In this document: positions 35,356 to 48,395 of the stretch, in pieces
How the letters are laid out: the number at the start of each line of letters is the position of its first letter
Position numbering within the stretch: the first letter of the stretch is position 1
Assembly: GCF_030433855.1 (NCBI RefSeq)
Contig: NZ_JARUXC010000001.1
Coordinates: 310,001 to 374,000 of the forward strand
Source of the DNA: Agreia sp. PsM10
GTDB lineage: Bacteria; Actinomycetota; Actinomycetes; Actinomycetales; Microbacteriaceae
Reading direction: 5' to 3'
Length of the DNA: 64,000 bases
The notes under the pieces: model-generated
Seen by the model: only the letters and a program-made list of their open reading frames with translations
What the model was told of the DNA's origin: nothing
Databases searched by the model: none
Position numbers and translations under genes: made by a program

Positions 35356-36336
35356 TCAGGCGGTGACCCTGATCGTTCCGACGGGCCTGCCCCCGCCGAG
35401 CACGGTCAGATCGAATCGTGCGACAAGGGTGTCGACGTCGCCGCGGTCCATTGCTCCCGCACGCACCAGGAGCTCGAGCGCGACGAGTGCGGCCGCGCGA
35501 AGGCTGCCATCGAGGATCTTGAGTGCCACCGCCACACCGGAGAGCGTGGACATCACCATGACCCCTTCGGCGCCGAGCTTCGCGAAGATCTGCAGCTCGT
35601 CGATCACCATCGTGTTCTGTTCGCCGGGCGCGTCTACCGCCCACCCATTGGCGAGGACCGAATCGACGAGCCATTCGGAATCGGGCGTGGTGCGCTGCGC
35701 GATGCGTGACACGCCGCGGGCGAGGCCTCGCAATGAGATCGCGTGCACGGGTGCGCCGCATCCGTCGACGCCGGATGCCACGATCGTCTCGCCGGTCTCC
35801 CGCTCGATGACCTCGCGCACGCGCAGCTGCAGGGGATGGCCCGGGTCGAGGTAGTCGGCCGTGCTCCAGCCCTGCTGAACACACGCCAGCAGCATGGCGG
35901 CGTGCTTGCCCGAGCAGTTCATGAAGACACGCTGCACCCCGGCATCGGCGCGGACCACCGCGTCGCGGGCGGCCCTGTCGCCCGGCCAGTCCGCCGGGCA
36001 TCCGAGGTCGGATTCGCCGAGAGAGGCGAGCGAGAGGATCTCGCGCACGACCTCGACGTGCGCCGAGGTGCCTCCATGGCTCGCCATCGACAGGGCCGTC
36101 TGCAGGGGACTGAGGTGCACGCCCGCCTCGCGGATGGCCAGCGCCTGAAAGGGCTTGAGGCTGGAACGCGGAAACACGGGAGCACCGGCATCGCCCAGCT
36201 CGGCGATGATCGCGCCGTCGGCTGCGACCACGACTGCGGCGCCCACATGACGCGACTCTATGAACCCGCTGCGCTCGAGAACCGCCAGCTCGACGGCCGC
36301 GGCGATCGTGACGGCGCCTGCTGCCGTCGACGTCAT
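35356..36336 (-). CDS. L-asparaginase, Rhizobium-type (PF06089-like)
   Basis: A 326-residue protein of the thermolabile asparaginase II family, unrelated to the E. coli type. Conserved segments are visible: FPRSSLKPFQALA (about residues 55-67), MASHGGTSAHVEV (about 83), FMNCSGKHAAMLLACVQ (about 139-155) and ASGVDGCGAPVHAISL (about 187-202); the Ser-x-x-Lys and Cys-Ser-Gly-Lys motifs carry the active site in this family. Its ATG overlaps the stop of gabT, so it is the second gene of that operon. It would supply aspartate and ammonia to nitrogen metabolism. Confidence 0.9.
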   Translation of the reverse strand: MTSTAAGAVTIAAAVELAVLERSGFIESRHVGAAVVVAADGAIIAELGDAGAPVFPRSSLKPFQALAIREAGVHLSPLQTALSMASHGGTSAHVEVVREILSLASLGESDLGCPADWPGDRAARDAVVRADAGVQRVFMNCSGKHAAMLLACVQQGWSTADYLDPGHPLQLRVREVIERETGETIVASGVDGCGAPVHAISLRGLARGVSRIAQRTTPDSEWLVDSVLANGWAVDAPGEQNTMVIDELQIFAKLGAEGVMVMSTLSGVAVALKILDGSLRAAALVALELLVRAGAMDRGDVDTLVARFDLTVLGGGRPVGTIRVTA

Positions 36337-37688
36337 CGCAGGGTCGCCATGGCCTCGTCGATCACGCCGAGCGCGTCGGTGAGGAGCGCGTCGGAGATGG
36401 CCAGACTCGGAAGGAAACGCACGATGTTGCCGTAGGTTCCCGCATTCAGGACGAGGACGCCGTGCTCGGCCGCGTAGGCCACGATGGCGTCGACGGCCTT
36501 CGGGTTGGGCTCCTTCGTCGTCGCTCCGGTTCCGGGCTGCACCAGCTCCATCGCGATCATGGCGCCGACGCCCCGGATGTCGCCGATGATGTCGTACTTC
36601 GAGGCGAGGGTCTCGAGGCCCGAGACCAGCGTCTGCTCGATGCGTGTCGCCTCGGCCAGCAGGTCGTCGTTCTCGATCTGCTCGAAGACGGCGACGGCCG
36701 CCGCAGCGGCCACGGGGTTTCCGCCGAACGTGCCGCCCAGGCCGCCGGGAAGTGCTGCATCCATGATCTCGGCGCGACCGGTGACGCCGGCGAGGGGGAG
36801 ACCACCCGCGATGCCCTTGGCGCTCAGCACCATGTCGGGCACCAGCCCGAAGTGCTCGCTGGCGAAGTACGCACCCGTGCGGGCCATTCCGCTCTGGATC
36901 TCGTCGGCGATGAAGACGACCCCGTTGTCAGTGCACCACTGCTGCAGTGCCGGCAGATAGCCGTCGGCAGGCACGACGAAGCCGCCCTCGCCCTGGATCG
37001 GTTCGACCACGAGGCAGGCGAGGTCATACGCGCCGACGGTCTTCTCGAGGTAGTTGATGGTGCGCTCCGCCGCCTCGGCGCCGGAGAGGCCGTCGTGGTA
37101 GGGGTACGAGTTCGGCGCGCGGTAGACGGCGCCGGCGAGAGGGCCGAATCCGGTGGCATACGGCGCCGCCTTGAAGTTCATGGCCATGGTCAGGTTCGTG
37201 CGGCCGTGGTAGGCGTGCTCGAGCACGGCCACACCCGTGCGACGTGTGTACTTGCGCGCGATCTTGACCGCGTTCTCGACGGCCTCGGCGCCCGAGTTGA
37301 CGAGGACGGTCTTCTTCGCGAAGTCGCCCGGGGTGTGCTCGGCGAGCAGCTCTGCGACCCGCACGTACTCCTCGTAGGGAGTGACCGTGAAGAGGGTGTG
37401 CGTCACCTTGCCGAGCTGGGCCGTCGCCGCCTCGATGACGCGGGCCGAGGTGTGCCCGACCGTGGTCACTCCGATGCCGGCACCGAGGTCGATGAACTGG
37501 TTGCCATCGACGTCGACGAGGATGGCGCCGTTGGCCTTCTCGATGTAGACGGGAAGAGCCGTGCCGACCCCCACCGGTACAACGGCCAGTCGTCGCTCGT
37601 GCAGTTCGATGCTTCGAGGGCCGGGGATCGCCGTGACGACCTTCCGCTCCTGGGCGACGGTGTAGGAAGAACTCAGCGTGTCAGTCAT
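36333..37688 (-). CDS. gabT: 4-aminobutyrate aminotransferase
   Basis: PLP enzyme (451 residues) that converts GABA and 2-oxoglutarate to succinate semialdehyde and glutamate. The PLP lysine is in VLSAKGIAGGLPLAGV (about residue 288); VNSGAEAVENAVKIAR (about 123), YHGRTNLTMAMN (about 153) and FIADEIQSGMARTG (about 256) are GabT-typical. It would take GABA from the aldehyde dehydrogenase; no succinate-semialdehyde dehydrogenase gene is in the window. The frame is open to 37718, but ATG 37688 has a -10 hexamer suitably placed. The divergent OsmC gene starts only 52 bases away. Confidence 0.92.
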   Translation of the reverse strand: MTDTLSSSYTVAQERKVVTAIPGPRSIELHERRLAVVPVGVGTALPVYIEKANGAILVDVDGNQFIDLGAGIGVTTVGHTSARVIEAATAQLGKVTHTLFTVTPYEEYVRVAELLAEHTPGDFAKKTVLVNSGAEAVENAVKIARKYTRRTGVAVLEHAYHGRTNLTMAMNFKAAPYATGFGPLAGAVYRAPNSYPYHDGLSGAEAAERTINYLEKTVGAYDLACLVVEPIQGEGGFVVPADGYLPALQQWCTDNGVVFIADEIQSGMARTGAYFASEHFGLVPDMVLSAKGIAGGLPLAGVTGRAEIMDAALPGGLGGTFGGNPVAAAAAVAVFEQIENDDLLAEATRIEQTLVSGLETLASKYDIIGDIRGVGAMIAMELVQPGTGATTKEPNPKAVDAIVAYAAEHGVLVLNAGTYGNIVRFLPSLAISDALLTDALGVIDEAMATLR

Positions 37689-37698
37689 GATGCGAGCA

Positions 37699-37734
37699 AG
37701 TTTACCGCCGGGTCGCACGGCGCCCGGTTAGGCT
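37699..37734. promoter_or_regulatory. compact divergent promoter, gabT and osmC-like genes
   Basis: On the plus strand TAGGCT (37729-37734) ends 6 bases before GTG 37741; on the minus strand TAAACT (37704-37699) ends 10 bases before ATG 37688. Both promoters fit in a 52-base gap, so their -35 regions must overlap. Confidence 0.55.
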
Positions 37735-37740
37735 GATCGC

Positions 37741-38205
37741 GTGAAAGCGCAGCATTCCTACACGGTGACCGTAGAGTGGCTTGGAAATCGGGGCACGGGC
37801 ACGAGCAGTTACCGCGACTACGGGCGCGAGCATCTCGTGCGTGCCGAGGGCAAGCATCCGATCGAGGGCAGTGCCGACCGCACCTTCCACGGCGACGTCG
37901 ACCGCTGGAATCCCGAGGAGATGCTGCTCGCGGCGCTCAGCCAGTGCCACATGCTCTCGTATCTGCACGTCGCCGTGCTGCACGGCGTGGTGGTCACGGG
38001 ATACACCGACGAGGCGACCGGCACCCTGGCCCTCGACCGCACGGGCGGGGGTCGCTTCACCTCGGCGACGCTGCATCCGAGGGTCGAGCTCGCCGATCCC
38101 GCCCAGGCTGAGCTCGCGCAGACTCTGCACGCCGAGGCGAGCGAGAAGTGCTTCATCGCCAACTCGGTGAACTTCCCCGTACTGCACGAGCCGCAGGCCG
38201 GATGA
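37741..38205 (+). CDS. OsmC family peroxiredoxin-like protein
   Basis: A 154-residue OsmC/Ohr-fold protein with the two redox cysteines of the family in LLAALSQCHMLSYL (about residue 67) and HAEASEKCFIANSVNFPV (about 138), and the usual arginine-bearing N-terminal half (YRDYGREHLVRAEGK). The group reduces organic hydroperoxides; within it the protein looks like the general OsmC subgroup, not Ohr. GTG 37741 is supported by a leaderless -10. The stop overlaps the ATG of the phosphopantetheinyl transferase, so the two are cotranscribed. Confidence 0.88.
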   Translation: MKAQHSYTVTVEWLGNRGTGTSSYRDYGREHLVRAEGKHPIEGSADRTFHGDVDRWNPEEMLLAALSQCHMLSYLHVAVLHGVVVTGYTDEATGTLALDRTGGGRFTSATLHPRVELADPAQAELAQTLHAEASEKCFIANSVNFPVLHEPQAG

Positions 38206-38780
38206 CGACCAGCCACGTGCGGGTCGTGCTGGAACCGGCACCGGCACTCGACGGGCTCGAACGGGCCGTGGCATCCGTCGCCCGCGTTCGGGCCGACCAG
38301 GTGGTCATCGACTCGTCGTGCGACGACTGCGGAAGGCCGCACGGCAAGCCGCGGGTGTCGTCGCCCCGTGCCCCGGACGGCTCGGAGATCGTGGTGAGCA
38401 AGAGCTCGGCCGGTGGTCTGGTCGCGATCGCCGTGTCGATGGATGCGGCGGGTCGAGACCTCGGGGTCGATGTGGAGTCGCGCACGAGCGTCTCGCGAGC
38501 CCGCGTCGACGAGGTGGCGTTCTCCGACGCGGAACGCGACCTCATCGACGACGAGCCGGCCGCGAGCCGTGCCCTGCTGCGCACCCGCCTGTGGTCTCGC
38601 AAGGAGGCCTATCTCAAGGCGACCGGCCGCGGCGTGCGCCTCGACCTCACGACCGTCGATCTCGCATCCGGTTCAGCGGCCGACGCCGTCATCGTGGATG
38701 TGCCCGTGAACGACCCCGACCTGGTGCTCAGCGTCGTGCTGCTCGGCACCGGGCCCGTGATCGTCGACCTGACCGACTAG
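38202..38780 (+). CDS. 4'-phosphopantetheinyl transferase, Sfp superfamily
   Basis: Transfers the phosphopantetheine arm of CoA to a serine of carrier proteins. Both diagnostic motifs are visible: RDLGVDVESR (about residues 84-93, magnesium ligands) and LWSRKEAYLKATGRG (about 130-144). The 192-residue size fits the two-lobed Sfp type used for secondary metabolism rather than AcpS. Its natural partner is the carrier domain of the Pls-like synthetase encoded 2 kb away. The start overlaps the OsmC stop (ATGA). It converges with the M1 peptidase gene. Confidence 0.9.
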   Translation: MTTSHVRVVLEPAPALDGLERAVASVARVRADQVVIDSSCDDCGRPHGKPRVSSPRAPDGSEIVVSKSSAGGLVAIAVSMDAAGRDLGVDVESRTSVSRARVDEVAFSDAERDLIDDEPAASRALLRTRLWSRKEAYLKATGRGVRLDLTTVDLASGSAADAVIVDVPVNDPDLVLSVVLLGTGPVIVDLTD

Positions 38781-38794
38781 TCGGCGGAGCCGAC
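38773..38794. terminator. bidirectional stem-loop between converging genes
   Basis: GTCGGC-GGA-GCCGAC (38780-38794) directly behind the phosphopantetheinyl transferase stop, overlapping the 12-base palindrome CCGACTAGTCGG (38773-38784). It lies between the stops of two converging genes and could end both transcripts. Confidence 0.5.
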
Positions 38795-38817
38795 GGACCG
38801 AACGGCCGACGTCACCG

Positions 38818-40152
38818 TCAGTGCGGAAGAACCGGCAGCCGTTCGGAGAAGAGCCACGTCTCGAACAGCTCGTCGAGGTCGACAGGGCTGCGGTCGTTGG
38901 CATGAAGGTAGAAGCCCTCGGTGGTGACGTTGCCGTAGCGGTTCTCTGTCGCCCACGAACTGATCAGCTCGAAGAACGCGTCGTCTCCGACCGTGAGGCG
39001 CAGGGCGTGCAGGGTGAGCGCTCCGCGCTTGTAGACGCGGTCGTCGAACATCAGCTCGGGGCCGGGATCGCCGATGGCGAGGTCCTGCGGAAGGTGCGAG
39101 AGCCGGGCCCAGTGCTGGTGGGCGAGCCTGTCTGCCGAGAGCCCTCCCGACTCCTCCGACCACAGCCACTCGGCATAGCACGCGAAGCCCTCGTGCAGCC
39201 AGATGTCCTTCCAGGTGGTCGCAGTGAGGCTGTTGCCGAACCAGGAGTGCGCGAGCTCGTGCGCGATGAGCCGCTCCGAGCCGCCGAGGCCGTCGATGTG
39301 GTTCCTGCCGAACACGGCGAACCCGTGGGCCTCGACGGGGATCTCGAGGTCGTCGTCGGTCACGATGACCGAGTACTCGCCGAACGGGTAGGGGCCGAAC
39401 GAACGCTCGAAGAGCGCGAGCATGCGTTCCTGGTCTGCGAAGTCGCTCTGCGCCCGTGCGACGATCGCGGGCGGCACGAACACGGTCTGCGGCACGGGGA
39501 TGCGCGCCAGGACGATCTCGCGATACGCACCGATCTGGATGCTGGCCAGGTAGGTGGCCATGGGTTCGACGGTCTCGAACGTCCAGGTCGTACGGCTGGC
39601 CCGCCGCACCTTCGAGAGGAGCCGGCCGTTGGCGAGAACCGAGTACGACGACTCGGTCGTGATGCGGATGCGGAAGGCGGCCTTGTCGCTCGGGTGGTCG
39701 TTGCACGGGAACCAGCTGGCCGCGCCGCTCGGCTGCGAGGCGACCAGCACGCCGTCGCTGAGCTCCTCCCAACCGAGTTCGCCCCACGGGCTGCGCACGG
39801 GATGGGGAGAGCCGCCGTAGCGCACCGTGACGACGAACTGCTCACCGGCCGGGATCGTGCGAGCCGGCGTGATGGTGAGCTTCCTCGCCGATTCGACGAG
39901 CTTCGAGGGTGCGACGCCGTCGATGGAGACGCGGGTGGCGACGAGTCCGCAGAAGTCGACGCTGAACCGGCTCAGGTCATGGGTCGCCGTGGCGGTGATG
40001 ACGGCGGTGGCGGCGAGGCGGTTGTTCGCGACGCGGTAATCGAGGTCGAGGTCGTACGACGAGACCGTGTATCCGCCGTTGCCGCTCGAGGGCACATAGC
40101 TGTCGCCTATCGAGAGCGATCCGTGACTGGGGTGAAAAGGTGTGTGCGGCAT
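38818..40152 (-). CDS. M1 family zinc metallopeptidase
   Basis: A 444-residue gluzincin aminopeptidase with the full zinc site HELAHSWFGN...WLHEGFACY (about residues 294-322; HExxH then Glu 19 residues later). The usual exopeptidase loop GxMEN is replaced by VEAHGFAVFG (about 272). No signal peptide is evident. It is short for the M1 family because the long C-terminal helical domain is absent. It starts 7 bases after the stop of the Pls-like synthetase, so it is very likely in the same operon; from memory, epsilon-poly-lysine producers carry zinc aminopeptidases that degrade the polymer. Trimming or self-protection is the inferred role. Confidence 0.88.
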   Translation of the reverse strand: MPHTPFHPSHGSLSIGDSYVPSSGNGGYTVSSYDLDLDYRVANNRLAATAVITATATHDLSRFSVDFCGLVATRVSIDGVAPSKLVESARKLTITPARTIPAGEQFVVTVRYGGSPHPVRSPWGELGWEELSDGVLVASQPSGAASWFPCNDHPSDKAAFRIRITTESSYSVLANGRLLSKVRRASRTTWTFETVEPMATYLASIQIGAYREIVLARIPVPQTVFVPPAIVARAQSDFADQERMLALFERSFGPYPFGEYSVIVTDDDLEIPVEAHGFAVFGRNHIDGLGGSERLIAHELAHSWFGNSLTATTWKDIWLHEGFACYAEWLWSEESGGLSADRLAHQHWARLSHLPQDLAIGDPGPELMFDDRVYKRGALTLHALRLTVGDDAFFELISSWATENRYGNVTTEGFYLHANDRSPVDLDELFETWLFSERLPVLPH

Positions 40153-40159
40153 CGGTCGC

Positions 40160-43100
40160 TCAAGTATTCCACGGGGCGATGGGGTTGCCCGTCCACCGGC
40201 TGGCCGCCGGCACGACCTCGCCCCGCATCACAAGGGAGGCGGGGCCGACGGTCGCGCCGTCGTCGATGCGCGCCGCGGGCAGGATCACGCTGTGCGGTCC
40301 GAGGGTCGCGCCGGCTGCGATCGCCACGCTGTCGAGCGACATGACCCTGTCGTGGAAGAGGTGGGTCTGAACCACGCAGCCGCGGTTCACGGTCGACCCG
40401 TCGCCGAGGGAGACGAGATCGGCCTCGGGCAGCCAGTACGTCTCGATCCAGGTGCCCGCACCGATGCGGGCGCCGAGGGACTTCAGCCAGAGGGCGAGGG
40501 CCGGAGTACCCGTCGCCGCCCGAGCGAACCACGGCGCGGCCACCATCTCGACGAAGGTGTCGGAGACCTCGTTGCGCCAGATGAACGACGACCAGAGCGG
40601 ATGCTCGGTGGCGCGGATCCGGCCCACGATCGTCCACTTCGCGACGGTCGTGACCGAGGCCGCCACCGCTCCGGCTGCCAGCATCACGGGCCCCGACACG
40701 GCGATCGTCCAGCCCAGACCCCAGGCGACGAGCGCGGCCTCGAGAGTGAGCAGCACACCGAGCCCGATGGCCACCGTGACCATGACCGGCACGAGTCGAC
40801 CGAGCTCCCACAGCGCACGGGCGATGCGCAGCACGCGGGACGGTTCGTAGGTGCGGCTCTCATCGAACTCGGCCACGGCTCGGCGAAGGCGCACCGGGGG
40901 GTTGCCGAGCCATGACGATCCGGACTTCGCCTTGCGCGGCGTCGCCGACAGCACGGCCACGAGTCCGTTCTTGGGCACCGTGCGCCCCGGTCCCGTCATG
41001 CCGCTGTTGCCGAGGAACGCCCGCCGGCCGATCTTGGCCTCGTCGATGCGCATCCAGCCGCCGCCGAGCTCGTAGGAGGCCACCATGGTGTCGTCGGCGA
41101 GAAAGGCGTGGTCGGCGATCGTCGTCATGGCCGGCAGCAGAAGCACCGTCGATGCCTCGACGTTCGACCCGACCTTCGCTCCCAGCAGACGGAGCCACAC
41201 CGGAGTGATGAGACTCGCATAGAGAGGGAAGAGCATGCTGCGCGACAGATCGAGCAGGCGCTCCGTGGCCCACACCTGCCAGCCGACGCGCGAGCGCACC
41301 GGATAGTGCCCCGGGGCGAGGCCGATTCCGAGGAGACGGACGCTGCCCACCACGAGCGCCGCGAACACGAGGCCGGCGGCCAGCGTGGCGAGCGGAACCG
41401 AGGCGAGCGCACGCAGGGCGAGCTCGCCGAGCGAGTCCGAGCCCCGCACCATCGCACCCGTGACGAGCGCGCCGACCGCGAGCGCCACGAGGGGGAGCAG
41501 CGACAGCACCACCGAACCCGCGCCGTAGGCGGCGACCCAGCCGGATGCGCGCGGCGGCCGTTCGGCCGGCCAGCCCGGGCGGGCCTTGCCCATCCGTTCG
41601 GCCGGCGAGCCCGCCCAGCGCTCGCCGCCGGGCACCCGGCCCGACACCGATGAGCCCGCGGCGATCTCGGCGCCGCGACCGACCCTGGCGCCCGGAAGCA
41701 TGGTGCTTCGAGAGCCGATCGTCGCGTCCGCCCCGATCGTGATCGTGCCGATGTGCAGCACGTCGCCGTCGATCCAGTACCCCGAGAGGTCGACCTCGGG
41801 TTCGATGGCGACTCGGGCTCCCAGCTTGAGCATTCCCGTGACCGGCGGCAGCGAGTGAAGATCGACGCCCTCGCCGATGGTGGCCCCCAGAGCGCGCGCG
41901 TAGTACGAGATCCACGGTGCTCCCGCGAGGCTGGCCGCGCCCACGAGCCCGGCGACCTGCTCGGCGAGCCAGAGGCGCACGTGCACGTGCCCTCCGCGCG
42001 GATACGACCCGGGCCGCACGCCACGCAGCAGGATGCGGGCGGCGACGACGGAGACGGCCATGCGGCCGATGGGCGTGACGAGCACGAGGAATCCGACGAT
42101 CAGCCACCACCAGGAGACCTCGGGCAGCCACTCGATGCCGGCGAACGCGCCGAGGAGGAGATTGGCCGCGAGCAGGTAGACGCTCCAGCGGGCGCCCACG
42201 ATGATGTGGAGCGGGATGCCGAGGAGGGTCTGGGCCCACCGGGTGGAACGCGGGGTGGGAACGACGGTGCGGGGCTGGGCCGCCTCGCGCGGAGTGCGCG
42301 AGTCGAGTTCTGTGGCCAGAGCCCCGATGCGGGGATGGTCGTAGATGTCGGACACCCGCGCCTCGGGGAAGCGGGCCCGGATCATGCTCGTGAGCTGCGC
42401 CGCGGCGAGGCTGCCCCCGCCCACGGCGAAGAAGTCGTCGGAGGAGTCGGACACGGCCGTTCCGAGGACGTTCGTCCAGAGTTCCGCAAGCCACCCGGCG
42501 GTTCCCGTGAGCTCTGCCGTCGAACCGGGCTGACCGGTGCCGCCGCTCGCGGGCAGGGGCCACGGCAGCGCGGAGCGGTCGACCTTGCCGGAGATGCGCG
42601 TGGGAATGGACTCCACGACGGCCAGCGCCGGCACCAGTGCGGCCGGCAGCTCCTCACGGAGCCGGGCCACGGCCGCCGCGCGGTCGAAGTCCGACTCGGC
42701 GATGCTCGCATCGAGCGCGAGATAGCCGACGAGCACCTGGTTCCCCGCGCCGGATGTCTGCACGACGGCGGCGGCGCCCGCGACGCCCGGCAGCGCCTGC
42801 AGGGCCGCCTCGATCTCGCCCAGCTCGATCCTGCGGCCGCCGAGTTTGATCTGGTCGTCCGCGCGGCCCTGGAAGACCAGCCCCGCCCGCTCGAACCGCA
42901 CGAGGTCGCCGCTGCGGTAGGCGCGCGGCCAGCCGAGGCTCGGCATCGGCGCGTACTTCTCCGCGTCCTTGGCCGGGTCGAGGTAGCGGGCGAGTCCCAC
43001 GCCTCCGATGATCAGCTCGCCGACCTCGCCCTCGCCGACGGGGTCGCCGGCCGCATCGACGACGGCCAGGTCCCAGCCGTCGAGGGGAAGGCCGATGCGC

Positions 43101-44104
43101 ACGGGCGTCGATCCGTCGAGGAGGGCGCCGCAGGCCACGACCGTCGCCTCGGTCGGCCCGTAGGTGTTCCACAACTCGCGGGCCGGAGTGGCGAGCCGTG
43201 CCGCGAGCTCGGGCGGGCATGCCTCGCCGCCGAAGATGAGCAGGCGTACGTTCTCGAGCGACTCGGCGGGCCACAGACCGGCCAGGGTCGGAACCGTCGA
43301 GACGACGGTGATGCCGTGCGCGATGAGCCACGGTCCGAGGTCGGCGCCCGAGCGCACGAGCGATCGGGGTGCGGGAACCAGGCAGGCTCCGTGCCTCCAT
43401 GCGAGCCACATCTCCTCGCACGACGCGTCGAAGGCGACGGAGAGCCCGGCGAGCACCCGGTCGCCCTCGTCGAGCGGTTCCGAACGGAGGAAGAGGCGGG
43501 CCTCCGCATCGACGAAGGCGGCGGCCGAGCGGTGGGTGACCGCGACCCCCTTCGGCACTCCGGTCGAGCCGGAGGTGAAGATGATCCATGCGTCGTCGTC
43601 GGGGGTGGGCGAACCGAGCGTCGTGATCGTCCCGGTTCCGGTGCGTACGGGCTCGAGGCCGACGCTCGGTCGGCTGTCGAGCCGGCGGGTGCCGTCGGCC
43701 GAGGTCCGGGGCACGATCGTGCCGTCGGCCCCGATGAAGCCCACGACGTCGGCCTCGCCGAACACGAGCTCGGCCCGCTCCTCCGGATCGTCGGCGTCGA
43801 CGGGCACGTAGGCCGCACCGAGCACCAGAACGGCCAGGATCGAGACGTACAGCGTGCGACCGCCCGAGGGGATTCGGATTCCGACCCTGTCGCCGCGGCG
43901 GACCCCCGCGATTGAGAGCGCGACGGCGGCCTGCGAGACGAGCCGCATCAACTCGCGGTAGCTGATCGATCCGTTCGCGTCGGCCAGGGCCGCCGATTCC
44001 GGATGCCTGTTGGCCGATTCCCGAAGGATGTCGACGAGGGTGCGCTCCGGCGGCGTCCGCTCGCTGCCCAGGAGGAGTCCGCGGTCGGCGGGGGAGTCGG
44101 TCAC
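40160..44104 (-). CDS. Pls/PosA-type membrane poly-amino-acid synthetase (single-module NRPS)
   Basis: A 1314-residue synthetase with the layout of epsilon-poly-L-lysine synthetase. An adenylation domain comes first (A3 IIFTSGSTGVPKG about 174; A5 NTYGPTEATVV about 312; A10 ISGKVDRSALP about 502), then a carrier domain with the phosphopantetheine serine in FFAVGGGSLAAAQL (about 563). Three pairs of membrane helices follow (about 635-695, 855-928, 1095-1165), each before a soluble tandem domain with hexapeptide-like beta-helix repeats (about 742-838, 971-1068, 1211-1311). No condensation or thioesterase domain exists; in Pls the tandem domains polymerise the amino acid. Aligned by eye to GrsA the specificity residues read DAESLFTVVK; the acidic residue suggests a basic amino acid. 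GTG 44104 has AGGAG 6 bases upstream; ATG 44140 has none. Confidence 0.9.
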   Translation of the reverse strand: MTDSPADRGLLLGSERTPPERTLVDILRESANRHPESAALADANGSISYRELMRLVSQAAVALSIAGVRRGDRVGIRIPSGGRTLYVSILAVLVLGAAYVPVDADDPEERAELVFGEADVVGFIGADGTIVPRTSADGTRRLDSRPSVGLEPVRTGTGTITTLGSPTPDDDAWIIFTSGSTGVPKGVAVTHRSAAAFVDAEARLFLRSEPLDEGDRVLAGLSVAFDASCEEMWLAWRHGACLVPAPRSLVRSGADLGPWLIAHGITVVSTVPTLAGLWPAESLENVRLLIFGGEACPPELAARLATPARELWNTYGPTEATVVACGALLDGSTPVRIGLPLDGWDLAVVDAAGDPVGEGEVGELIIGGVGLARYLDPAKDAEKYAPMPSLGWPRAYRSGDLVRFERAGLVFQGRADDQIKLGGRRIELGEIEAALQALPGVAGAAAVVQTSGAGNQVLVGYLALDASIAESDFDRAAAVARLREELPAALVPALAVVESIPTRISGKVDRSALPWPLPASGGTGQPGSTAELTGTAGWLAELWTNVLGTAVSDSSDDFFAVGGGSLAAAQLTSMIRARFPEARVSDIYDHPRIGALATELDSRTPREAAQPRTVVPTPRSTRWAQTLLGIPLHIIVGARWSVYLLAANLLLGAFAGIEWLPEVSWWWLIVGFLVLVTPIGRMAVSVVAARILLRGVRPGSYPRGGHVHVRLWLAEQVAGLVGAASLAGAPWISYYARALGATIGEGVDLHSLPPVTGMLKLGARVAIEPEVDLSGYWIDGDVLHIGTITIGADATIGSRSTMLPGARVGRGAEIAAGSSVSGRVPGGERWAGSPAERMGKARPGWPAERPPRASGWVAAYGAGSVVLSLLPLVALAVGALVTGAMVRGSDSLGELALRALASVPLATLAAGLVFAALVVGSVRLLGIGLAPGHYPVRSRVGWQVWATERLLDLSRSMLFPLYASLITPVWLRLLGAKVGSNVEASTVLLLPAMTTIADHAFLADDTMVASYELGGGWMRIDEAKIGRRAFLGNSGMTGPGRTVPKNGLVAVLSATPRKAKSGSSWLGNPPVRLRRAVAEFDESRTYEPSRVLRIARALWELGRLVPVMVTVAIGLGVLLTLEAALVAWGLGWTIAVSGPVMLAAGAVAASVTTVAKWTIVGRIRATEHPLWSSFIWRNEVSDTFVEMVAAPWFARAATGTPALALWLKSLGARIGAGTWIETYWLPEADLVSLGDGSTVNRGCVVQTHLFHDRVMSLDSVAIAAGATLGPHSVILPAARIDDGATVGPASLVMRGEVVPAASRWTGNPIAPWNT

Positions 44105-44110
44105 GTCAGT

Positions 44111-44115
44111 CTCCT
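44111..44115 (-). promoter_or_regulatory. Shine-Dalgarno deciding the Pls-like start
   Basis: AGGAG on the minus strand, 6 bases before GTG 44104. It supports a 1314-residue protein over the 1326-residue reading from ATG 44140. Confidence 0.7.
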
Positions 44116-44230
44116 GGTGTATCGGATGCCGCGCGCCCACGCGGCGCTCGAACCATAGGGGCCACAGGTGGACGAGAGGTTAACGACCCGAATGGGAACG
44201 GATTCGCCGCGGGTGCAGTTAGCTAGGAAC

Positions 44231-45625
44231 GTGTCCACACCTCCCACCCCCGTCATGCAGCGCCTGGTGCTGATCGTCGCCGTGCTCTCCGCCTTCGTCG
44301 CGTTCCTCGACGGTACCGTCATCACGGTGGCGCTCCCGGCCATCACCAGGGAACTCGGCGGCGGCATCGTCACACAGCAATGGGTGATGGATGCTTACCT
44401 CATCACCCTCGGCTCCATCATCCTGCTGGCCGGCTCGCTGTCCGACGTGTTCGGGCGCAAGCGGGTGCTGTTCTGGGGAGTCGTCGGGTTCGGCGTGTCG
44501 TCGTTGATCTGCGCAGTGGCTCCCACGGCCGGAATCCTCATCGGGGCGCGAGCACTTCAGGGAGTCGCAGGCGCGCTTCTGGTTCCCAGCTCCCTCGCAC
44601 TGATCCTCTCGGCGTTCTCCGGCCCGGCCCAGGCGAAGGCGATCGGGTCGTGGACCGCGTGGACGAGCACGGCTTTCCTCGCCGGGCCGCTGATCGGGGG
44701 CCTCCTGGTCGACCTCGTCTCGTGGCGCCTCGTCTTCGCCATCAACGTGATTCCGATCGCCGTGACCCTCCTCTTCCTCGCCCGGCTTCCCCACGATCAT
44801 CCGGCCGCACCCGGCTCCCGCGTCGATCTTGTCGGCGCGGCACTCGGCATCGTCGGCCTGGGTCTGCCCGTCTTCGCGCTCATCGAGCAGTCGCGGTTCG
44901 GCTGGACGAGTCCCGTCATCATCGTTCCCGCATGTCTCGGTGTCGTCTCGTTCGTTCTCTTCATCCTGCACGAGCGGCGCACGGCGCAGCCGATGATGCC
45001 GCTGTCGCTGTTCCGGGTGCGCAACTTCTCGGTGGGCAACGTCTCGACGTTCCTCGTCTACGGCGCGCTCTCGCTGGGAACCTTCCTCCTCGCCGTGTTC
45101 CTGCAGCAGGTGGCCGGCTACACCGCGACCCTGGCCGGCCTGAGCATGCTCCCCACCACCCTGATCAGCATCGGCCTCTCGACCCAGGTCGGCCGTCTCG
45201 CCGGAAAATACGGATCGCGGTTCTTCATGCTGATCGGTCCGATCGTCGCGGGGGCCGGGTTCTTCCTGCTCCTGCGCCTCTCGAGCTCGGCCGACTACTG
45301 GAGCGAGGTCTTCCCCGGAATCGTCGTGTTCGGACTGGGCATGACCATCACGGTCGCGCCGCTGACCTCCGCCATCCTCGGATCCATCGAGCCGTCCAGA
45401 GCGGGCATCGCCTCCGCCGTGAACAATGCGGTCTCCCGGGTCGCCGGCCTCATCTCGGTCGCGGCCGCCGGTCTCATCGTGGGGGCGAACCTTGATGTCG
45501 ACGGCTTCCATCGCGCCGCGATCGTCACCGGCGTTCTCCTCATCGCGGGCGGCATCGTCTCGGGAATCGGCATCGTGAACCCCCGTCGTTCGGATGCGGC
45601 GGAGAAGTCGACGACCGCCGCATGA
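44231..45625 (+). CDS. MFS drug/metabolite exporter, EmrB/QacA (DHA2) type
   Basis: A 14-helix major facilitator of about 464 residues. Family motifs are LDGTVITVALPAI in helix 1 (about residues 24-36), the helix 2-3 loop GSLSDVFGRKRVLFWG (motif A), and helix 5 motif C (AGPLIGGLLVD). DHA2 members export drugs or peptides by proton antiport. It is divergent from the Pls-like synthetase and overlaps a GNAT gene (ATGA). Export of, or resistance to, the synthetase product is a reasonable inference. The start is uncertain: GTG 44231 fits a leaderless reading (TTAGCTA just upstream), while GTG 44168 has AGGGG 6 bases ahead and would add 21 residues. Confidence 0.88.
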   Translation: MSTPPTPVMQRLVLIVAVLSAFVAFLDGTVITVALPAITRELGGGIVTQQWVMDAYLITLGSIILLAGSLSDVFGRKRVLFWGVVGFGVSSLICAVAPTAGILIGARALQGVAGALLVPSSLALILSAFSGPAQAKAIGSWTAWTSTAFLAGPLIGGLLVDLVSWRLVFAINVIPIAVTLLFLARLPHDHPAAPGSRVDLVGAALGIVGLGLPVFALIEQSRFGWTSPVIIVPACLGVVSFVLFILHERRTAQPMMPLSLFRVRNFSVGNVSTFLVYGALSLGTFLLAVFLQQVAGYTATLAGLSMLPTTLISIGLSTQVGRLAGKYGSRFFMLIGPIVAGAGFFLLLRLSSSADYWSEVFPGIVVFGLGMTITVAPLTSAILGSIEPSRAGIASAVNNAVSRVAGLISVAAAGLIVGANLDVDGFHRAAIVTGVLLIAGGIVSGIGIVNPRRSDAAEKSTTAA

Positions 45626-46161
45626 CGTCACCGGACGTGCGGCTGGTCTTTCTCGGCGACGAGGTCTACGCCCTGCTGCAGGGCGGCGATCTCACCGGGG
45701 CGTCGCTGCGCGCGGGCGTCGAACTGCCGCGGCCCTTCGTGACGACCGAATCGTGGCTGTGGCCCGTCTTCCGGGCCAAGCTCGCCGCCGACCCGTCGGC
45801 GGAACGTCTTCTCGTCAGGGCGATCGTCGACCGGCAGACAGGCGTCGTCGTCGGTCATGCGGGGTTCCATGCCTCTCCGGATGCCCGGGGCATGGTCGAG
45901 ATCGGATACACCGTTCTCGAGGACCACCGCCGGCGGGGATACGCCACGGCGGCGGCCGCCCTGCTGCTTCGTGAGGCCGCCTCGCGCGGAGCCCGTGTCG
46001 TGCGGGCGAGCGTCAGTCCGCAGAACGAGGCCTCGCTCTCCGTCGTTCGTCGCCTCGGCTTCGTTCAGGTCGGGCATCAGGTCGATGAGGAGGACGGGCT
46101 GGAGCTCGTCTTCGAACGCGACCCCGTCGGCGTCCTGGACGAGACCCCTCCCAGCCGCTGA
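45622..46161 (+). CDS. GNAT family N-acetyltransferase
   Basis: A 179-residue GNAT protein. The acetyl-CoA-binding motif A is EDHRRRGYATAAAALLLREA (about residues 101-120), followed by VSPQNEASLSVVRRLGFVQVG (about 132-152, two pieces of motif B). Similar RimJ-like enzymes acetylate alpha-amino groups of proteins or small molecules. Translational coupling to the MFS gene suggests a joint task; acetylation of an amine-rich product as protection is possible but unproven. Confidence 0.87.
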   Translation: MTSPDVRLVFLGDEVYALLQGGDLTGASLRAGVELPRPFVTTESWLWPVFRAKLAADPSAERLLVRAIVDRQTGVVVGHAGFHASPDARGMVEIGYTVLEDHRRRGYATAAAALLLREAASRGARVVRASVSPQNEASLSVVRRLGFVQVGHQVDEEDGLELVFERDPVGVLDETPPSR

Positions 46162-46262: not shown

Positions 46263-47267
46263 GTGCGCAAATTTCCCGTCATCCTCGCCGTCTCGGCACT
46301 CGCCCTGACCCTCGCCGGATGCTCCGGTTCGCCGTCGCCCAGCTCCACGCCGGATGCGAGTGCGACCTCTGCGCCCCAGGCCGAGGCGGGTTCGTGCACG
46401 GAGACGCCGAGCGGCGACGCCTCCGATTCGATCTCCGTCACGGGCGACGCCGGCACCAAGGCAGCGGCGACGTTCGATTCGCCCGTCGACATCGACACGA
46501 CCCAGCGCACCGTTCTCTCCGAGGGCGACGGAGTGAAGGCGAACATCGGCGATCTGGGCATCCTCAACTTCACCCTCTTCAACGGAACGTCCGGCGACGA
46601 GGTCTTCTCGACCTACGACGAGGGATCGGCGGGACTCAGCATGGTCGTCGACGCGACCCAGTTCCTTCCCGGGCTCGTCAAGGGCGTCGAGTGCCTCAAC
46701 GGCGGCTCTCGGATCGCTGTGGCCGTGCCGGCCTCGGAGGGCTTCGGAGACGCCGGCAACTCCTCGCTGGGCATCGCCGCCACGGACCCGCTCGTGTTCG
46801 TGGTCGACTTCGGCCAGGTCGTCTCCGTCACCGACCCCGACCAGCTGAAGGCGAACGGGGCAGTGCAGCCGGTGGTCGACGGTGTGCCGACCGTCGTCGA
46901 CGCCGAGGACGGAACCCCGACCGTGACGATCCCCGACGCCGCGCCGCCGGCCGACCTCACCGTCACCGTGCTCAAGAAGGGCGACGGCAAGGTCGTCGAG
47001 TCCGGCCAGCCGTCGATCGTGCAGTACCAGGGCAGCATCTGGGGCAGCAAGAAGATGTTCGACCAGAGCTGGGGCAAGACGCCCTTCGCTGTGCAGCCGG
47101 GCGGCACCGTCCAGGGCTTCGAAGCGGCGATCACCGGCCAGACGGTAGGGTCCCAGGTCATCGTCTCGATCCCGCCGGCGCAGGGCTACGGCGACGCGGG
47201 CCAGGCCGACGCCGGCATCTCGGGCACCGACACGCTGGTGTTCGTCATCGACATCCTCGCCGCGTAG
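46263..47267 (+). CDS. FKBP-type peptidyl-prolyl isomerase lipoprotein, two domains
   Basis: A secreted lipoprotein of 334 residues: signal peptide with lipobox LAGC (Cys 20), a Ser/Pro/Ala-rich linker, a degenerate FKBP-like domain (about 75-195) and a better conserved FKBP domain (about 235-334; VQYQGSIWGSKKMFDQSW, VQGFEAAITGQTVGSQV, YGDAGQADAGISGTDTLVFV). It probably folds or stabilises exported proteins outside the membrane. GTG 46263 has GAGG upstream. Confidence 0.9.
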   Translation: MRKFPVILAVSALALTLAGCSGSPSPSSTPDASATSAPQAEAGSCTETPSGDASDSISVTGDAGTKAAATFDSPVDIDTTQRTVLSEGDGVKANIGDLGILNFTLFNGTSGDEVFSTYDEGSAGLSMVVDATQFLPGLVKGVECLNGGSRIAVAVPASEGFGDAGNSSLGIAATDPLVFVVDFGQVVSVTDPDQLKANGAVQPVVDGVPTVVDAEDGTPTVTIPDAAPPADLTVTVLKKGDGKVVESGQPSIVQYQGSIWGSKKMFDQSWGKTPFAVQPGGTVQGFEAAITGQTVGSQVIVSIPPAQGYGDAGQADAGISGTDTLVFVIDILAA

Positions 47268-47315
47268 CTCAGCGCGCCCTGCGGGCCGGTCGCAGCCAGG
47301 TGCGAGGATAGCGAT

Positions 47316-48395
47316 GTGAAACGCGTAGTCATCCTTGGTTCAACCGGCTCGATCGGCGTGCAGGCGCTCGATGTCGTTCGCTCGAATCCCGAGAGATTCG
47401 AGGTGGTCGGCCTCGGGGCTGGACGCAATCGGGAACTCCTCGACGAGCAGGCCGCGGAGTTCGGAGTCGCCGACACGGCGCTGGGCGCCGACGAGGCCTC
47501 GCAACTCGTGCGTGACATCGACGCCGACGTCGTCCTCAACGGAATCACGGGCTCCGTCGGGCTCGGACCGAGCGTCGCGGCTCTGAAAGCCGGACGCGTC
47601 CTCGCCCTGGCGAACAAGGAGAGCCTCATCGTGGGCGGCGACCTTCTGAAAGACCTCGCTCGCCCGGGTCAGATCGTTCCCGTCGACTCGGAGCACTCCG
47701 CGATCGCCCAGGCGCTGCGTTCCGGAACTCCGGAGGAGGTCGAGCGCCTGGTGCTCACCGCCTCGGGCGGGCCGTTCCGCGGGCGGAGCCGGGCATCGCT
47801 CGTCGGCGTGACCCCCCGCGAGGCCCTCGCGCATCCGACCTGGGACATGGGGCTGGTCATCACGACCAACTCGGCCACGCTCGTGAACAAGGGCCTCGAG
47901 GTCATCGAGGCGCACCTGCTGTTCGACGTCGCCTACGGCCGGATCGATGTCACCGTGCATCCCCAGTCGATCATCCACTCGATGGTCGAATTCATCGACG
48001 GCTCCACCATCGCGCAGGCATCGCCGCCCGACATGAAGCTGCCCATCTCCCTGGGTCTCGACTGGCCGAACCGGGTGCGCGGCGTCGGCCGCCCACTCGA
48101 CTGGACGTCGGCGCAGACCTGGACCTTCGAGCCGCTCGACTCCGAGGCGTTCCCCGCCGTCGAACTCGCGAAAGAGGTGGGCAGGGCCGGAGGCAGCTAT
48201 CCCGCGGTCTTCAATGCGGCGAACGAGCAGGCCGTCGCGGCGTTCCATGCGGGCAGCATCGGATTCCTCGACATCGTCGACACCATCCGCAGCGTCGTCG
48301 AGAAACACGACGCGCCGGCCGAGATCTCTCTCGACTCGCTGGCGGCGACGGAGGAGTGGGCGCGGCGCGCGGCCGATGAGCTCATCGCAAGCTGA
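47316..48395 (+). CDS. dxr: 1-deoxy-D-xylulose-5-phosphate reductoisomerase
   Basis: Second enzyme of the MEP isoprenoid pathway, converting DXP to MEP with NADPH. The nucleotide-binding LGSTGSIGVQALDVV (about residues 7-21), metal and substrate site VPVDSEHSAIAQAL (about 121-134), LTASGGPFRGRSR (about 147) and the catalytic loop with HPTWDMG (about 171) are all present; 359 residues. Dxr, the M50 protease and ispG form a conserved bacterial neighbourhood, and ispG lies 3.5 kb downstream. Confidence 0.96.
   Translation: MKRVVILGSTGSIGVQALDVVRSNPERFEVVGLGAGRNRELLDEQAAEFGVADTALGADEASQLVRDIDADVVLNGITGSVGLGPSVAALKAGRVLALANKESLIVGGDLLKDLARPGQIVPVDSEHSAIAQALRSGTPEEVERLVLTASGGPFRGRSRASLVGVTPREALAHPTWDMGLVITTNSATLVNKGLEVIEAHLLFDVAYGRIDVTVHPQSIIHSMVEFIDGSTIAQASPPDMKLPISLGLDWPNRVRGVGRPLDWTSAQTWTFEPLDSEAFPAVELAKEVGRAGGSYPAVFNAANEQAVAAFHAGSIGFLDIVDTIRSVVEKHDAPAEISLDSLAATEEWARRAADELIAS

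Follow-up and report, generated by a model that had tools for sequence, protein, structure and literature searches.

The window analysed here is a 64,000-nucleotide stretch of the genome of Agreia sp. PsM10 (Microbacteriaceae), taken from positions 310,001 to 374,000 of contig NZ_JARUXC010000001.1 (C20 among the 106 contigs of this 4.01-Mb genome), and it very probably carries an ordinary epsilon-poly-L-lysine (epsilon-PL) locus of the known pls-pldII type. This reading is based on the domain anatomy of a membrane synthetase, its lysine-type substrate pocket, its placement in a tree of adenylation (A) domains and the conserved linkage of its gene. The synthetase locus as described below is confirmed, and its pattern is far above chance. 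An earlier, sequence-only reading had proposed a five-gene set, of which the synthetase, an M1 zinc peptidase and a 4'-phosphopantetheinyl transferase (PPTase) are supported, while an MFS exporter and a GNAT modifier are not. The same reading had recognised a Microbacteriaceae background, in agreement with Agreia sp. VKM Ac-1783 as the closest named relative (90% identity across the synthetase). The three genes retained are, in window coordinates:

40160-44104, minus strand: Pls-type (epsilon-poly-L-lysine) synthetase, 1314 aa; A domain, carrier domain, six predicted transmembrane helices and tandem domains C1, C2 and C3
38818-40152, minus strand: M1 zinc peptidase, PldII-like partner, 444 aa; PF01433 and PF17900
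38202-38780, plus strand: Sfp-type PPTase, 192 aa with the ATG at 38202 as start; PF01648, 52.3 bits

The open frame of the synthetase gene extends over 40160-44140 on the minus strand (1326 aa counted from its first GTG), and a GTG at 44104 preceded by an AGGAG box gives the 1314-residue protein. Its C-terminal part matches TIGR02353, the Pls/PosA C-terminal domain, described in NCBIfam as 'Pls/PosA family non-ribosomal peptide synthetase', scoring 728.7 bits where the cut-off is 423.1 and covering model positions 2-695 of 695; it is the only protein in the genome above that cut-off. The amino-acid adenylation model likewise scores above threshold (334.6 bits versus 317.4). At E values up to 0.001, Pfam finds AMP-binding, AMP-binding_C, PP-binding, Hexapep and Hexapep_2 and nothing else, that is, a single A domain and a single carrier domain, the carrier serine lying in a VGGGS motif, and no canonical condensation or thioesterase domain. 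Hydropathy analysis identified hydrophobic regions in the C-terminal half at residues 654-705, 867-944 and 1112-1164 (the last given as three overlapping segments), which we read as three helix pairs, or six predicted transmembrane helices; a further hydrophobic segment, 94-117, falls within the A domain. When the three segments lying between and after the helix pairs were compared by profile-profile alignment, they matched each other with probabilities of 98.6, 99.1 and 97.0, whereas a control segment reached only 0.1 to 0.6. Hydropathy and repeats therefore agree with the published layout of the Pls/PosA-type C-terminal domain as three helix pairs and three tandem domains (PMC10522769). The single-module layout that the sequence-only reading had assigned to this protein is thus borne out, and all three tandem C-terminal domains are present.

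The best match of the synthetase in the PDB is epsilon-poly-L-lysine synthase 7WEW (615.9 bits; runner-up 372.8), which we take to be the A domain of Streptomyces albulus Pls, and the two A domains are 65.0% identical. Ten pocket residues, placed by eye via GrsA numbering (D238, A239, E242, S281, I302, G304, T326, V334, V335 and K519), give the code DAESIGTVVK, all ten being the same in 7WEW. Among the 80 named loci (the best 80 of at least 591 relatives), 78 carry this code too, a count that leaves out L101 and L113, where the match started ahead of an in-frame stop and the wrong segment was read; so do all four of the plasmid homologues obtained first; loci L001-L044 were left out of both pocket codes and tree. 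Published comparisons place Ala at position 2 of the pocket in lysine enzymes, Met in PosA, which uses ornithine, and Phe in enzymes for poly-diaminopropionate and poly-diaminobutyrate (PMC10522769). By its predicted residues the pocket of the Agreia synthetase is of the lysine type.

Four control homologues carry other codes. In L129 and L130 the pocket reads DFECLSAVTK; the homologue in L129 precedes genes for a diaminobutyrate transaminase and an aspartate kinase, and that in L130 lies in an unannotated stretch with a frame of only 1109 aa. The alphaproteobacterial controls L131 and L132 (Rhizobium and Azospirillum) read DLEDIGTVVK and DLEDIGSVVK, both different from the codes for lysine and for ornithine. 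A tree of 29 A domains (27 drawn from 88 loci, 80 of them named and eight from plasmids, together with the window's own and that of 7WEW) separates the four controls from the window's synthetase and 7WEW by a split supported at 100/100; 7WEW is the sole named epsilon-PL synthase in it, and the four outside rows are uncharacterised homologues. Homology thus places the synthetase with a lysine polymerase and not with a non-polymerising family, a point on which the sequence-only reading had depended.

These data bear directly on the possibility that the enzyme makes a different cationic homopolymer, such as delta-poly-ornithine, gamma-poly-diaminobutyrate or beta-poly-diaminopropionate. Enzymes of this sort do occur in the family with a C-terminal domain of the same kind, the PosA A domain prefers L-ornithine yet binds L-lysine in crystals (PMC10522769), and a class III aminotransferase gene lies nearby at 36333-37718. 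By contrast, the pocket is the same as that of 7WEW, with Ala rather than Met or Phe at position 2, and the protein lies on the 7WEW side of the 100/100 split. The aminotransferase, for its part, exceeds the cut-offs of two models for gamma-aminobutyrate (GABA) transaminase (644.9 versus 639; 526.8 versus 506.65) and falls under that for diaminobutyrate transaminase (229.7 versus 671). We therefore regard another homopolymer as very unlikely.

The start of the M1 peptidase gene follows the synthetase stop after 7 bases, as the sequence-only reading had stated. The protein carries HExxH-18-E, and H298, E299, H302, E321, E274 and Y374 (zinc ligands, catalytic Glu, the glutamate of the exopeptidase GxMEN motif, here PxEA, and Tyr) show no variation across all 83 rows. 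Loss of the GxMEN glutamate was at first suspected, as it would fit the endo-type action reported for PldII; the idea was rejected when the GAMEN glutamate of ERAP1 was found, by eye, to align with the invariant E274. Among PDB entries, 6A8Z ('zinc metalloprotease, putative') scores highest, at 195.9 bits.

With tblastn, every one of the 80 named loci showed an M1 homologue downstream of pls and in the same orientation. The start of the match lay within 130 bases of the pls stop in 75 of these, and at 0.6 to 2.2 kb in the other five (L065, L066, L077, L083 and L091). All M1 counts are from tblastn; an iterated M1 profile drifted (241 matches, many of them weak or in other frames) and was excluded. 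On plasmids of Kitasatospora and Streptomyces, too, the gene next to pls is annotated as an M1 family metallopeptidase; at a Streptomyces plasmid locus the two genes overlap by 4 bases. Two further plasmid loci, L128 (Rhodococcus opacus B4) and L127 (Streptomyces viridifaciens), have lysine-type pockets and an M1 neighbour neither annotated nor found; plasmid-borne pls genes do not always come with an M1 partner. In S. albulus, pldII is reported to be translationally coupled to pls, and PldII to be an endo-type aminopeptidase at the exterior of the membrane (PMC9223678). A pls-peptidase operon has likewise been described in Corynebacterium variabile and Streptomyces, with PldII postulated to serve self-protection (PMC8117764).

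The third member of the set is the PPTase gene, which is convergent to the M1 peptidase gene. Its open frame begins at 38148, and its ATG overlaps the stop of an OsmC-like gene by four bases (38202-38205), so that it is probably co-transcribed with OsmC rather than with pls. A profile search covering the 4.5 kb downstream of pls found a convergent PPTase gene in 33 of the 39 loci from Micrococcales (Microbacteriaceae 21/26, Micrococcaceae 10/11, Intrasporangiaceae 2/2, the families being assigned from genus names in titles) and in 0 of 41 other loci. Across 398 sampled genomes of the family, the PPTase was present in 163 of 165 with the synthetase versus 18 of 233 without it (Fisher p 9e-88, a value that ignores kinship and comes from a profile that was built from pls-adjacent PPTases and leans towards them). 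The PPTase is thus probably part of the pls set, as had been proposed from the sequence. Only two matches to the ACPS family occur in the window's genome, this PPTase and a 121-aa frame that we take for AcpS; no condensation domain was found there. Given these two matches and the single TIGR02353 match in the genome, we infer that the PPTase would be the natural activator of the synthetase. A literature search of one library did not find the PPTase-pls linkage in print.

The two remaining genes of the proposed set lie on the other side of the synthetase:

44168-45625, plus strand: MFS (DHA2-type) transporter, divergent, judged a non-conserved part; TIGR00711, 253.6 bits versus 230.2
45622-46161, plus strand: GNAT acetyltransferase, judged a non-conserved part; PF13302, 62.8 bits

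The sequence-only reading had described a divergent MFS gene coupled to a GNAT gene, which is correct in that the two frames overlap; it had further taken the MFS protein to export the polymer and the GNAT protein to modify it. In favour of such a wider five-gene cluster, the MFS frame begins about 60 bases from the synthetase start and is present at the same place in six of seven congeners. However, a close counterpart beside pls was found in only one of the 80 named loci for either gene, in both cases L045 from Agreia (MFS 85%, GNAT 67%), with three of the 80 loci holding less than 4 kb upstream, which limits this negative. The congener G005 is probably the same as L045. Within the genus, the congener G007 (L139) shows no MFS match and has an FKBP gene adjoining pls in its place, from which we conclude that the MFS gene is gained or lost within the genus. 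The GNAT gene is present in four of the seven congeners, and one of the three that lack it has a Pls 98% identical to that of the window. We therefore reject, on synteny, the MFS protein as a conserved exporter and the GNAT protein as a conserved modifier, and consider the five-gene cluster highly unlikely. Distant divergent MFS genes do occur near pls in L052 (Antrihabitans, 29% identity, 0.6 kb) and L049 (Rhodoglobus, 30%, 1.5 kb), and could be invoked for the wider cluster; these may be chance neighbours or independent exporters.

Most improbable of all is a non-polymerising NRPS-like (non-ribosomal peptide synthetase-like) protein with an altered C-terminal domain: no polymer from the genus was found in the literature examined and the broad conservation could reflect another role, but the C-terminal domain lacks none of its three repeats or six predicted helices, and layout and operon match those of the C. 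variabile enzyme proven for epsilon-PL (PMC8117764).

The locus shares with 7WEW-type Pls and PldII the A-carrier-six-helix-three-tandem-domain layout (PMC8117764, PMC10522769), the pocket DAESIGTVVK and a peptidase gene directly behind pls; it differs in A-domain sequence, in the convergent Sfp-type PPTase nearby and in its Microbacteriaceae host. Architecture, lysine-type pocket and peptidase operon are also shared with C. variabile Pls and its coryneform homologues, including that of Microbacterium (PMC8117764), although the genus is another one and the part of that paper examined does not mention a PPTase neighbour. PosA, the delta-poly-L-ornithine synthetase of Acinetobacter baumannii, is an enzyme of the same kind with the same kind of C-terminal domain, but its predicted pocket is DMEHNGTVSK (PMC10522769). 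Matches in A. baumannii plasmid records are about 35% identical over the matched pieces and are not shown to be PosA. With PldII the M1 peptidase shares the coupling of its gene to pls (PMC9223678).

Several observations weigh against the reading as an epsilon-PL locus of the pls-pldII type. That PldII is an M1 enzyme is itself an assumption. Hydropathy detected no membrane helix in the M1 protein, whereas PldII is reported at the exterior of the membrane (PMC9223678). The M1 gene was not found beside pls in two of the four plasmid loci tested (L127 and L128), and no PPTase gene turned up next to pls in 5 of the 26 loci from Microbacteriaceae, in 1 of the 11 from Micrococcaceae (a locus that holds just 2 kb of flank) or in any of the 41 from outside Micrococcales. 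As to the product, C. variabile Pls yielded epsilon-PL, with the product proven, when expressed in Streptomyces coelicolor behind the S. albulus pls promoter; however, no epsilon-PL was detectable from C. variabile itself, and C. glutamicum with induced C. variabile Pls contained the protein but made no epsilon-PL (PMC8117764). By analogy with this non-production, the Agreia locus may be silent.

If the locus is active, we infer the following course from its gene content. The PPTase would place phosphopantetheine onto the carrier domain of the synthetase, whose A domain would adenylate L-lysine and transfer it there. Within the membrane, the three-fold C-terminal domain would then form bonds between the epsilon-amine of each lysine and the alpha-carboxyl of its neighbour, giving a cationic isopeptide of tens of lysines that is probably exported by Pls itself. 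The M1 peptidase, presumably co-transcribed with pls, may cut the polymer for self-protection or turnover.

The locus occupies a fixed chromosomal place in the genus, since its flanks (35356-38205 and 46263-48395) are the same in seven of seven congeners examined. On one side stand genes for asparaginase II, GABA transaminase and OsmC, and on the other FKBP and a putative dxr. The pls set is present in all eight genomes of the genus that were searched, the window's own included, and the synthetase in 165 of the 398 sampled family genomes, representing 41 of 85 genera. Pls homologues from Corynebacterium, Brevibacterium, Arthrobacter, Microbacterium and others, from cheese and skin, have been published (Jiang et al. 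2021, PMC8117764), a cluster of the epsilon-polylysine type in Subtercola is already in print, and a 2024 Antarctic study reported such clusters in all of its actinomycete strains (PMC11078813). The locus is therefore a well conserved one of known type, with a gene set widespread among relatives, and less unusual than the sequence-only reading had suggested. The additions made here are modest: in Micrococcales the PPTase gene is often a third member of the set, and the MFS and GNAT genes drop out as conserved parts.

The locus adds Agreia to the known spread of epsilon-poly-lysine genes and shows which of their neighbours are conserved. Epsilon-PL, an antimicrobial polymer, is sold as a food preservative, and non-filamentous producers are of interest (PMC8117764). 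The pls-adjacent PPTase of Micrococcales offers a practical hint, namely its co-expression in heterologous hosts. We further propose, tentatively and as a possibility about which we remain somewhat doubtful, that epsilon-PL synthesis in Micrococcales is a three-gene module (pls, M1 and a convergent Sfp-type PPTase) whose PPTase is dedicated to it, set at a fixed place in the Agreia group and, in this genome, with no other NRPS condensation domain found. With the set in every genome of the genus that was searched, the polymer's natural role can be put to the test there. If true, such a module would suggest that this role is a standing physiological one rather than occasional antibiotic production.

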